The position numbers and the translations under genes are program-made. Below, piece by piece: positions 7,591-37,241 of a stretch of 64,000 nt of DNA. Below the pieces are notes generated by a model that was given only the letters and a program-made list of their open reading frames with translations, did not search any database and was not told the origin of the DNA. The DNA comes from Aquaspirillum serpens DSM 68 (GTDB lineage: Bacteria > Pseudomonadota > Gammaproteobacteria > Burkholderiales > Aquaspirillaceae), in the NCBI RefSeq assembly GCF_000420525.1, contig NZ_ATVC01000003.1, positions 1-64,000 on the forward strand, written 5' to 3'. Every line of letters begins with the position of its first letter. Within the stretch, counting starts at the first letter, position 1.

Positions 7591-7699
7591 TAGGATAGCT
7601 CGTTACTTTTAAGGAGATCGCGAGAAACAGAGTATGCACGGCATACTATGCTATCCCTCCCCGCTGACAGTCGGCGGGGCTTCTCGCGCACAAAATACT
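7591..7699 (+). promoter_or_regulatory. Structured RNA leader of hom (copy 1 of a metK/hom motif)
   Basis: This fills the alaA-hom gap. In order: GGATAGC (7593-7599); 11 nt; Shine-Dalgarno AAGGAG (7611-7616); P1 strand CGCGAGAA (7619-7626); hairpin P2 GTATGC-ACG-GCATAC (7632-7646); unpaired GCTATCC (7650-7656), fully complementary to the first 7-mer; hairpin P3 CCCCGC/GCGGGG (7659-7679); P1 strand TTCTCGCG (7681-7688); then ACAAAATACT just before the ATG at 7700. The same parts in the same order precede metK (18932-19030). The conserved order, the paired 7-mers and different hairpin sequences with preserved pairing argue for a selected RNA structure. With P1 closed, about 13 nt rather than 83 nt separate the Shine-Dalgarno and AUG. 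Confidence 0.75.
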
Positions 7700-9010
7700 A
7701 TGAAACCCATCCAAGTTGGCCTATTAGGCATCGGCACCGTTGGCGGTGGCACTTTTACTGTTTTGAATCGTAACCAAGAAGAAATCACCCGCCGCGCTGG
7801 CCGTCCTATTCAAATTACGATGGTGGCAGATAAAAACCTCGACCTCGCTCGTACCGTTGTCGGCGATGCCGCCACCATCACTGATGATGCGTTTGCTGTG
7901 GTGCGTGACCCGAATGTTGATATCGTGGTTGAGCTGATCGGTGGCTATGGCATTGCCAAAGAATTGGTGTTGGAAGCCATCCGCAATGGCAAACATGTGG
8001 TTACCGCCAACAAAGCGTTGTTGGCCGTACATGGCAATGAAATTTTTGCTGCTGCACGCGAAAAAGGCGTGACCGTGGCTTTTGAAGCCGCCGTTGCCGG
8101 TGGGATTCCTATCATTAAAGCGGTGCGTGAAGGCTTATCGGCCAACCGTATCCAATGGATCGCCGGCATCATCAACGGCACCACCAACTTTATTTTGTCG
8201 GAAATGCGCGACAAAGGCTTGTCGTTTAATGAAGTGTTAGCTGAAGCCCAACGCTTGGGCTATGCCGAAGCCGATCCAACTTTCGACGTTGAAGGGGTTG
8301 ATGCTGCACATAAAATCACCCTGCTGTCGGCTTTGGCTTTTGGTACGCCGGTGCAATTTAACCAAGCCCATATCGAAGGCATCACGTCGCTGAAAGCGGA
8401 AGATATTCGCTATGCAGAACAATTAGGCTATCGCATTAAATTGTTAGGCATCACTCGCCGTACCGAAGCCGGTGTCGAGTTGCGTGTTCACCCCACCTTA
8501 GTGCCAGAAAAACGCCTGATTGCCAATGTTGAAGGGGCGATGAATGCGGTGTTGGTACAAGCGGATGCCGTTGGCGCCACCTTGTATTACGGTAAAGGGG
8601 CAGGGGCAGAGCCAACCGCCAGTGCAGTGATTGCTGATTTGGTGGACGTGACTCGCTTACATACCGCCGACCCAGAACACCGTGTGCCACACTTGGCCTT
8701 CCAACCCGATCAATTGGCTGAATTGCCTATTCTGCCTATCGGTGAAGTGGAAACCGCTTACTACTTGCGTTTATCCGTCGAAGACAAGCCCGGTGTCTTG
8801 GCTGATGTAACGCGCATTTTGGCCGATCACAGCATCAGTATCGACGCCATGTTGCAGCGTGAACCAGCGGAAGGCGCTGATCAGGCAGATATCATTATTC
8901 TGACTCATCGCACGTTCGAAAAACACATGAGTGCCGCACTCGAGAAAATCACTGCCTTGTCAGTGGTGCGTGGTGATGTCACTCGTCTGCGTTTGGAGGC
9001 ATTAGGTTAA
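7700..9010 (+). CDS. hom: Homoserine dehydrogenase
   Basis: A 436-aa NAD(P)-dependent enzyme that reduces aspartate semialdehyde to homoserine, the branch point for threonine and methionine. GIGTVGGG (near residue 10) is the Rossmann motif; TANKALLA and GIINGTTNFIL are catalytic-domain signatures; a C-terminal ACT domain (about 355-430) would bind threonine for feedback control. ATG 7700 is chosen because the Rossmann strand starts right after it; an in-frame ATG at 7634 would add 22 residues encoded by the structured leader. The leader suggests translation of hom is controlled separately from alaA. The stop overlaps the thrC ATG by one base. Confidence 0.95.
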   Translation: MKPIQVGLLGIGTVGGGTFTVLNRNQEEITRRAGRPIQITMVADKNLDLARTVVGDAATITDDAFAVVRDPNVDIVVELIGGYGIAKELVLEAIRNGKHVVTANKALLAVHGNEIFAAAREKGVTVAFEAAVAGGIPIIKAVREGLSANRIQWIAGIINGTTNFILSEMRDKGLSFNEVLAEAQRLGYAEADPTFDVEGVDAAHKITLLSALAFGTPVQFNQAHIEGITSLKAEDIRYAEQLGYRIKLLGITRRTEAGVELRVHPTLVPEKRLIANVEGAMNAVLVQADAVGATLYYGKGAGAEPTASAVIADLVDVTRLHTADPEHRVPHLAFQPDQLAELPILPIGEVETAYYLRLSVEDKPGVLADVTRILADHSISIDAMLQREPAEGADQADIIILTHRTFEKHMSAALEKITALSVVRGDVTRLRLEALG

Positions 9011-17635: not shown

Positions 17636-17704
17636 GATGGGTGAGCGCCGTTAAAGGTGCCGGGCCTGGGAGGAAACTGTCCTCTCGCAGCGCTCCCCGG
17701 CGAA
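17636..17704 (-). promoter_or_regulatory. SAH riboswitch upstream of ahcY
   Basis: On the minus strand GGAGCGCTGC (near 17688-17697) and AACGGCGCTCACC (near 17640-17652) are the two conserved blocks of the S-adenosylhomocysteine riboswitch; GAGCGC and GCGCTC pair as its main stem, with an internal GAGAGGA/TCCTC hairpin between. This class activates ahcY expression when SAH is bound. A further strong hairpin (TGCGG/CCGCA, about 17603-17621) lies between the aptamer and the ahcY ribosome site and may be part of the expression platform. Confidence 0.88.
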
Positions 17705-17761: not shown

Positions 17762-18931
17762 TTACAAACCTGCATCAGCGCGCAAAGCAGCGGCTTTGTC
17801 GGTCGCTTCCCAAGAGAATTCAGGCTCTTCACGACCGAAGTGACCATAAGCAGCAGTCTTGCCATAAATCGGACGCAGTAAGTCCAACATCTGCACAATG
17901 CCTTTTGGCCGTAAATCAAAATGTTTTTTCACTAATTCCACAATCAATTCATTTGGTACGACATTGGTTCCAAACGTATCCACCGAGATCGAAGTTGGCT
18001 TCGCCACACCAATCGCGTAAGAAACTTGAATTTGGCACTGACGCGCTAAACCTGCGGCAACAATGTTTTTAGCCACATAACGACCTGCATAAGCAGCAGA
18101 ACGATCGACTTTTGATGGATCTTTACCAGAGAAAGCACCGCCGCCATGTGGCGCTGCGCCGCCGTAGGTATCGACAATAATTTTGCGACCAGTTAAACCA
18201 CAATCACCCATCGGGCCACCAATGACAAAACGACCGGTGGGGTTGATCAAGTATTTGGTTTCGGCAGTCAACATATGTGCTGGCAACACCGGTTTGATAA
18301 TGTCTTCAATCACCGCTTCAGTAAGGGTTTCTTGCGTAATTTCAGGGGCGTGTTGCGTTGACAACACCACCGTATCAATCCGCTTTGGCAAGCCAGTTGC
18401 ACTATCGTACACGCAAGTAATTTGCGACTTGGCATCAGGACGCAACCACGGCAGACGGCCATCTTTACGCAACTCAGCCTGACGTTGCACCAAACGGTGA
18501 GCGTAGTAGATAGGGAATGGCATCAAGCTTGGTGTTTCATCACACGCATAACCGAACATCAGACCTTGGTCACCTGCGCCTTGTTCCAAATCCAGCCCTT
18601 GCCCTTCGTTCACACCTTGGGCAATATCTGGAGATTGTTTGTCATATGCCACTAACACGGCACAACCGCGATAGTCAAAACCCAAATCCGAGCGGTCATA
18701 CCCGATACGTTTGATGGTATCGCGTGCCACTTGGATGTAATCGACATTAGCGTGGGTGGTAATTTCACCCGCCAACACCACCAAACCGGTGTTGACCAAG
18801 GTTTCTGCCGCAACGCGGGCATACTTATCTTGGCTCAGAATCGCATCTAAGATGGCGTCTGAAATTTGGTCTGCCACCTTATCAGGATGGCCTTCGGACA
18901 CCGATTCCGAAGTAAACAGGTATTCACTCAT
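17762..18931 (-). CDS. metK: S-adenosylmethionine synthetase
   Basis: A 389-aa enzyme that makes SAM from methionine and [25 protein letters not shown] is the conserved start region (split here: [11 protein letters not shown]), [12 protein letters not shown] the ATP-binding hexapeptide region, and [19 protein letters not shown] the P-loop-like segment. ATG 18931 is clear from the family; there is no Shine-Dalgarno in the 20 nt before it. The nearest AAGGAG is at 19006-19011, separated from the start by a three-way-junction RNA. Expression is thus likely to depend on folding of that leader. Transcribed toward ahcY. Confidence 0.96.
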
Positions 18932-19030
18932 GTATTTTTGCGAGGCGCCCTGTTGCAAGAACAAGGGGGGATAGCTTAGCGTAGATAACGCTCCGTGCTC
19001 GCAGACTCCTTTCTGAAAAACGCTACCCTA
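18932..19030 (-). promoter_or_regulatory. Structured RNA leader of metK (copy 2 of a metK/hom motif)
   Basis: Minus-strand order: TAGGGTAGC (the 7-mer GGGTAGC at 19022-19028); 10 nt; Shine-Dalgarno AAGGAG (19006-19011); P1 TGCGAG (18998-19003); hairpin P2 AGCGT-TATCT-ACGCT (18978-18992); unpaired GCTATCC (18969-18975), which can pair with the 7-mer through one G-U; hairpin P3 CCCTTGTT/AACAGGG (18948-18967); P1' CTCGCA (18939-18944); AAAATAC; ATG. All parts match the hom leader in order and spacing, while P2 and P3 differ in sequence but keep pairing. With P1 closed only about 9 nt remain between Shine-Dalgarno and AUG, an ideal spacing. I cannot match it to a known SAM riboswitch class. Confidence 0.75.
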
Positions 19031-36236: not shown

Positions 36237-37004
36237 TTATCTTTTTTCCGACGCTTGGCAAATCTTTTTAAACTGGCCAAGATCTAGAGATGCGCCACCA
36301 ACTAATACACCATCGACCTGAGGTAAAGCCAAGATGGCTTCTGCATTGTCAGCTTTAACGCTCCCCCCGTAAAGGACGCGCATAGTAGCACAAGCCGGCA
36401 AAGAATGCAGCAGCTTTTTTTGCAGCTGTGTATGCATTTCTTCCACGTCGGCCAAGCTGGCGACTTTTCCTGTCCCAATCGCCCACACGGGTTCATACGC
36501 CACCACCACCTGCGGCAGTTCTTTTAATAGTGGCATCACTTCATCCAGCTGTTGCTCAACCGTTTGCCAAGCCAGCCCAGCTTCACGTTGTGCAAATGAC
36601 TCACCCACACAAAAGATCGGTAATAAATGGTGTTGCGCCAGTGCCTTCAATTTTTTTGATAACACCTGTTGGCCTTCAGCGAAATATTGGCGGCGCTCAG
36701 AATGCCCGACCAAGACGGCACGACAGCCCACATCCGCCAACATCCGCGCCGACACTTCCCCTGTAAAAGCCCCGTCTTCAGCAAAGGAACTGACATCTTG
36801 TGCAGCAATCTGCCAGCCAGCTTGCTGCTGTTGCCACTCGTTTGCCAATAAAAGATAAGGCGTAGGCAAGGCAATCATAATATGAGACTGATTGCAGGCC
36901 GAATCTTGGGATAGCACTGACAAAGCAGCGCGCACTTGCGTTACGCTGCCATGCATTTTCCAGTTAGCAATCACCAACTTACCCGCAGAAAAAGGGGAGG
37001 ACAT
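36237..37004 (-). CDS. tpiA: Triosephosphate isomerase
   Basis: A 255-aa TIM-barrel enzyme that interconverts dihydroxyacetone phosphate and glyceraldehyde 3-phosphate. NWKMHG (Lys), VGHSERRQYF (catalytic His) and AYEPVWAIGTGK (catalytic Glu and flexible loop) are all present, as is the phosphate-binding VLYGGSVK. ATG 37004 has AAAGGG about 5 nt before it. First gene of tpiA-secG-tRNA-Leu-nuo. Confidence 0.95.
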   Translation of the reverse strand: MSSPFSAGKLVIANWKMHGSVTQVRAALSVLSQDSACNQSHIMIALPTPYLLLANEWQQQQAGWQIAAQDVSSFAEDGAFTGEVSARMLADVGCRAVLVGHSERRQYFAEGQQVLSKKLKALAQHHLLPIFCVGESFAQREAGLAWQTVEQQLDEVMPLLKELPQVVVAYEPVWAIGTGKVASLADVEEMHTQLQKKLLHSLPACATMRVLYGGSVKADNAEAILALPQVDGVLVGGASLDLGQFKKICQASEKR

Positions 37005-37241
37005 AGCGACCCTTTCCAAAAAAAGAGCGCGGATTATACCTGTGGCCTTGATGTTGCACAGCTGTTGTTGTCGATTTCGCGCTAACATCCGATGTTTACA
37101 GGATTTAGCGGAAAACCGAAGTCAGCAAATGATGGCTAAAATCTGCCAACAAAATAGGCGCAATTTTCCAACGCGCACGGCTTTTCTTGCATAAACACAA
37201 AACAAAGCTGTTTCAAACTTTGCTTAGCAAGGGGCTTTCCG

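Follow-up and report, generated by a model that had tools for sequence, protein, structure and literature searches.

The locus raises the question of what a Shine-Dalgarno (SD) sequence can do for a start codon that lies far beyond its usual reach. In the window (the whole 64,000-nucleotide stretch of Aquaspirillum serpens DSM 68 DNA analysed here), the preliminary description had placed the only strong SD of hom and of metK (AAGGAG) 83 and 74 nt, respectively, before the AUG. This was confirmed, and no second SD was found 4-15 nt before either AUG.

Anatomy of the hom and metK leaders

The elements of the two leaders are listed in Table 1. When helix P1 is closed, the distance between AAGGAG and the AUG is reduced from 83 nt to 2+11 = 13 nt in hom (AUG at 7700-7702) and from 74 nt to 2+7 = 9 nt in metK (AUG at 18931-18929), and the shortened paths reported earlier were thus reproduced from the sequence.

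Table 1. Features of the hom and metK leaders (window coordinates)
Feature	Position	Strand	Basis
Upstream 7-mer GGAUAGC, hom leader	7593-7599	+	sequence; complementary to 7650-7656
hom SD AAGGAG	7611-7616	+	sequence
hom P1 5' strand CGCGAGAA	7619-7626	+	pairing, covariation, folding
hom P2 hairpin AGUAUGC-ACG-GCAUACU	7631-7647	+	alignment and folding
hom J2/3 GCUAUCC, partner of upstream 7-mer	7650-7656	+	complementarity; conservation
hom P3 hairpin CCCCGCUGA-CAG-UCGGCGGGG	7659-7679	+	alignment and folding
hom P1 3' strand UUCUCGCG	7681-7688	+	pairing, covariation, folding
hom (homoserine dehydrogenase)	7700-9010	+	Pfam Homoserine_dh 3e-66; start AUGA at 7700
Upstream 7-mer GGGUAGC, metK leader	19022-19028	-	sequence
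metK SD AAGGAG	19006-19011	-	sequence
metK P1 5' strand UGCGAG	18998-19003	-	sequence, pairing, folding
metK P2 hairpin AGCGU-UAUCU-ACGCU	18978-18992	-	sequence, folding
metK J2/3 GCUAUCC	18969-18975	-	sequence; pairs with 7-mer 19028-19022, one G.U
metK P3 hairpin CCCUUGUU...AACAGGG	18948-18967	-	sequence
metK P1 3' strand CUCGCA	18939-18944	-	sequence, pairing
metK	17762-18931	-	Pfam S-AdoMet_synt_C 3e-68; start AUGA at 18931

The orthologues of hom begin at MKPI or similar, and the longer in-frame ORF from ATG 7634 (inside P2) probably does not mark the true start. A longer in-frame start is also present in the metK leader (TTG 18964), so that both proteins may be wrongly extended by gene callers.

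The absence of an SD close to the two start codons means little by itself, because such absence is common in this genome: in a crude count of open frames (not checked as genes), 29 of the 46 long ones in the window lacked an SD-like motif near any ATG or GTG at the frame start. The case for the leader therefore rests on its recurrence.

Recurrence of the leader before unrelated genes

Five copies of the leader are present in the A. serpens genome. Besides those of hom and metK, pattern searches revealed a third, upstream of the gene of a small RsaL-like HTH protein, and (in a second search) a fourth, upstream of a PAS/HAMP receptor gene, while a covariance model search added the fifth, which precedes a response regulator gene. 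All five abut an AUG-A start (ATGA), and the sequences of P2 and P3 vary between them with the pairing retained. When approx. 1.2 Mb of the genome were searched piecewise with R3, a covariance model built from other genomes only, all five were recovered (E values of 2e-11, 1.8e-10 for hom, 1.7e-7, 7e-5 for metK, and 0.004; 1.23 Mb searched). Model R2, whose sequences did not include metK, matched metK at 6.8e-8 in 64 kb; its weak match at 37001-37095 (plus strand; 15 bits, E 0.095) is probably due to chance.

The folding energy of the hom leader is far below that of shuffled sequences (z -4.3). The metK, HTH and receptor copies fold no better than shuffles (z -0.3 to -0.7), and the evidence for these three is therefore comparative. 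In the receptor copy, a closed P1 leaves only approx. 3-4 nt to the first AUG and 9-10 nt to the second.

When 399 genomes of the order were searched with a strict pattern, A. serpens alone yielded true copies, the remaining matches resembling chance hits, and the leader was absent upstream of the hom and HTH orthologues in those relatives whose upstream sequence was read. With a covariance model made from three copies (R1), the complete unit (GATAGC, SD, junction and AUG) was also detected in additional families among 369 genomes of the class. Dozens of additional copies were found in other gammaproteobacterial families, before unrelated genes including those for a response regulator, murJ, rnfB, cca and a pab-like gene; the list was extended in subsequent searches by mdh, nadC, modA, ubiE, rpoD, eno, rpiA, DAHP synthase, an erpA-like gene and others (names without a Pfam or NCBIfam result were read from translated N-termini). 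The genes behind these leaders form no regulon. The murJ gene of genome G596 has a leader in which the SD stands just before P1 (type A, see below), and ten relatives were read without such a leader. Two units of genome G604 (L179 and L171) contain P1, GCUAUCC and P3 and lack P2.

These observations bear on the proposal that a ligand such as SAM or methionine closes P1 and thereby switches translation of hom and metK. Both genes belong to the methionine/SAM pathway, the structure is conserved and includes a pseudoknot-like 7-mer, and a SAH riboswitch (RF01057, 56.1 bits; 17636-17704, minus strand) directly precedes the gene after metK, probably ahcY. However, the same RNA occurs in unrelated families before genes as diverse as those for the HTH protein, the PAS/HAMP receptor and the response regulator, rpoD, eno, rnfB, murJ and mdh, single genomes contain near-identical copies ahead of different genes, Rfam searches with the leaders of hom, metK and the HTH gene gave only chance-level matches at permissive thresholds, and the unit is attached to HEARO RNA and iscB (see below). 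A metabolite riboswitch is thus highly improbable, and the idea of a SAM-type regulon was dropped after further copies had turned up before unrelated genes. Two other candidates were abandoned: an upstream reading frame served by the SD (in the metK copy, no start codon follows the SD at a suitable spacing) and a lead on the "HTH-XRE" RNA, of which nothing came. Binding of CsrA, through AGGA-type motifs, was weighed as a further possibility.

Comparison of the leaders points to conservation of the fold and of the distance that it sets. Across 41 leaders, closure of P1 places the SD at a median of 11 nt from the AUG (10-90% range 8-14), against 61-102 nt in the unfolded RNA. In an alignment of 20 sequences from other genomes, P1 pairing reached 93%, and four of its seven pairs had changed on both sides; for the structure as a whole covariation exceeded that of 500/500 shuffles and of all slid controls. 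The pairing of P2 was 56% on this alignment and 94% on a smaller one; the low figure is attributed to misalignment of length variants in the former.

The pairing suggested earlier between the upstream 7-mer and GCUAUCC is 100% retained in the same alignment: in 20/20 non-self leaders the 7-mer is kept as GAUAG or GACAG with the matching change in its partner, although the one UA to CG change counts as a single event, since the two sequences that carry CG are orthologues. This helix may be a pseudoknot by which the junction is stabilized, or a competitor of P1, as in the minimum-energy fold of the metK leader with the 7-mer included, where the 7-mer pairs with GCUAUCC and P1 is left out. The metK fold, like that of the eno leader, in which the SD is buried, counts against bridging. 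Taken with the anatomy, the spacing in the 41 leaders and the two-sided changes in P1 nevertheless support the predicted role of the RNA as a scaffold that brings the SD to the AUG.

Association with ends of HEARO/IscB elements

Full-length relatives of the unit form the gene-proximal ends of mobile elements. Rfam HEARO (RF02033) matches just upstream of four type-A ends in family f119 (E values of 4e-23 to 6e-26), and an iscB reading frame precedes other ends (IscB, NF040563, at 1.8e-134 and 1e-128); HEARO RNA or iscB thus lies in the same element as the end for L224, L225, L226 and L229 and for the iscB-linked copies elsewhere. The units at these elements terminate at ATGA or GTGA. An IscB element is located at the obgE start in G003, a member of the family to which A. 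serpens belongs. A search of the A. serpens genome found no HEARO RNA, and the hom and metK loci contain no HEARO RNA, iscB or other element remnant, so that they would represent solo ends, not intact elements.

The ends supply an SD in two ways: (i) type A, with the SD directly 5' of P1 (43 units), and (ii) a tail type, with an SD-like GGAG among its final bases, e.g. GCGGAGGAACTG followed by ATGA. Another repeated end of the A. serpens genome, with the tail TTTCCTTGCGGAGATTCT followed by ATGA (L437 677-690, L401 and L425), is found directly at a purN-like start and at one further ORF; it also has an SD-like GGAG in its tail, and two of its copies adjoin a reverse ORF that is TnpB-like by eye and has no Pfam or NCBIfam match. 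In the class search, G513 was found to carry 82 HEARO RNAs in a 3.7 Mb genome. The G513 HEAROs that were inspected have a different end tail (CGGGTGA) and are barely matched by the end model.

The sequence GCUAUCC of J2/3 also occurs in the ends of IS200 and HEARO elements. One end of the IS200 copies of A. serpens and of G802 has the P2-GCUAUCC-P3 core, with no SD and a GGGTCA tail; the complete IS200 frame in A. serpens encodes a Y1 transposase, and G663 carries similar repeats. IS200 copies, some of them internally deleted (MITE-like), are located at many contig ends of G000 (C20, C46, C51, C63, C29, C74, C72, C79, C38 and C89).

The core bears on a further alternative, in which a host regulatory RNA (e.g. 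a translation switch controlled by a protein or sRNA through the 7-mer) came first and was later captured by HEARO-type elements. Solo leaders in genomes without HEARO (G000, G405, G604 and G701) and the complete pairing of the 7-mer would fit such an origin. This order of events is nonetheless very unlikely, given that the core forms the end of IS200 tnpA elements that have neither SD nor 7-mer, that the unit coincides exactly with the boundary of the element, at ATGA, and that the genes behind the leaders share no function.

An insertion is seen in mdh of G781, in which ...AAAGGAGTATTAGC (the left flank also read as ...AACGTCAAAGGAGTATTAGC) is followed by the element, from HEARO to its end, and then by ATGAAAAATCCC. 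In 20 mdh loci of the family an SD stands next to ATGAAR at this place and the element is absent; its removal from the G781 locus restores the native SD followed by ATGA. Among 17 elements examined, nine have an SD-like motif at most 16 nt from the left boundary, with the ATGA of the gene following the right boundary, as in the joined flanks AGGAGAAATC/ATGAAAATT and GAGGAGGAT/ATGAGT.

A gene start is abutted by 41 of the 43 type-A ends, compared with 17 of the remaining 46 (Fisher p 2e-9). In 33 of the 41 type-A starts (all except eight) the fourth base is A (ATGA), which compares with a baseline of 40% for the SD-led frames of A. serpens (p 1.6e-7). The test used ORFs of at least 60 aa, with related copies mixed and loci taken by model score; the p-values therefore overstate independence, and because of this choice of loci the figures do not give the start-codon rate of HEAROs in general.

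Orthologous solo leaders of f58 congeners were compared with their upstream flanks. Identity was higher in the leader than in the flank for rnfB (92 vs 47%), the FKBP-like gene (71 vs 55%), eno (84 vs 76%) and a lipoprotein gene (66 vs 28%), and did not differ in the closer FKBP-like pair G405/G802 (85 vs 84%).

Hairpins are needed at IS200/IS605 element ends for transposition in any case, and a strong SD is missing close to the start of many frames in this genome; the leaders of hom and metK could accordingly be element ends kept by chance, with SD-independent translation and an AAGGAG that has no role. This is unlikely: the SD, the P1 pairing and the folded spacing are preserved in diverged solo leaders, ends away from genes are mostly without the split SD, and the other subtype has an SD in its tail instead.

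Proposed mechanism and known systems

The leaders of hom and metK are probably retained ends of HEARO/IscB-type elements (IS200/IS605 superfamily) that serve as ribosome sites, with P1 bridging the SD to the AUG. Homology over approx. 100 nt points to the descent of the two copies from such elements, whereas the absence of HEARO RNA from this genome and of element remnants from the two loci counts against it. According to this model, the elements would insert directly 5' of RTGA, usually ATGA (many copies found with the end model sit at AUG-A starts of the host), and insertion at such a start would part the native SD from its start codon, for which the element end could compensate with an SD of its own. 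In the form seen at hom and metK, the SD would be placed just 5' of a three-way junction composed of the terminal hairpins P2 and P3 of the element, closed by P1; the closure would set the SD approx. 9-14 nt from the AUG, and the ribosome would initiate across the folded end. End hairpins of the IS200/IS605 type would leave an SD no space at its usual distance from the AUG; it would therefore have to stand before P1 and be bridged by the fold. The rest of the element would then be lost, and the end would persist since the gene would have come to depend on it.

On balance, though with less assurance, we favour a broader reading, in which RNA-guided-nuclease transposons evolved their ends as portable ribosome landing sites, insertion between SD and start codon of essential genes was tolerated, and solo ends were domesticated as permanent 5' leaders, with two solutions, an SD before the folded end or in its last bases. 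If so, a mobile element can enter essential genes at their most sensitive place, between the ribosome site and the start codon, without killing the host, an odd class of gene leaders is explained, and nature offers many instances in which ribosome initiation across a folded three-way junction could be studied. Ends of mobile elements could then mimic riboswitches, and start codons at such genes may be miscalled.

The closest known systems include HEARO/IscB, in that full-length relatives of the end adjoin HEARO RNA or iscB at RTGA; in contrast, the Rfam HEARO model represents the guide RNA and does not cover this end. The first description of HEARO (2009) reportedly noted insertion before ATGA or GTGA. 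A literature search found no description of a HEARO/IscB end as a ribosome-binding device, while insertion at start codons may have been noticed earlier. The ends of IS200 elements (tnpA only) share the P2-GCGCUAUCC-P3-UUGUCGC core, which occurs in A. serpens and in other genomes, and differ in their tail (GGGTCA) and in having neither SD nor 7-mer.

For the related IsrB, a target motif NTGA/ATGA has been published (PMC9581776). In IStrons, which combine an IS element with a group I intron, self-splicing is said to make insertions harmless (PMC4227781); on that account, they too are mobile elements that limit the damage to the gene entered, although the means proposed here is a supplied ribosome site and not splicing.

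A parallel for the bridging itself is provided by T4 genes 25 and 38: folding of the RNA that separates the SD from the AUG reduces the effective distance from 27 to 11 nt and from 22 to 5 nt, respectively, and translation is increased (PMC3014915). By analogy, the ribosome may cross the folded end at hom and metK, where the SD is likewise too far away in the linear RNA and at a functional distance once folded. Unlike the 22-27 nt structures of the phage genes, the leaders described here contain a three-way junction that spans 61-102 nt, and the structure is a transposon end and recurs at many genes.
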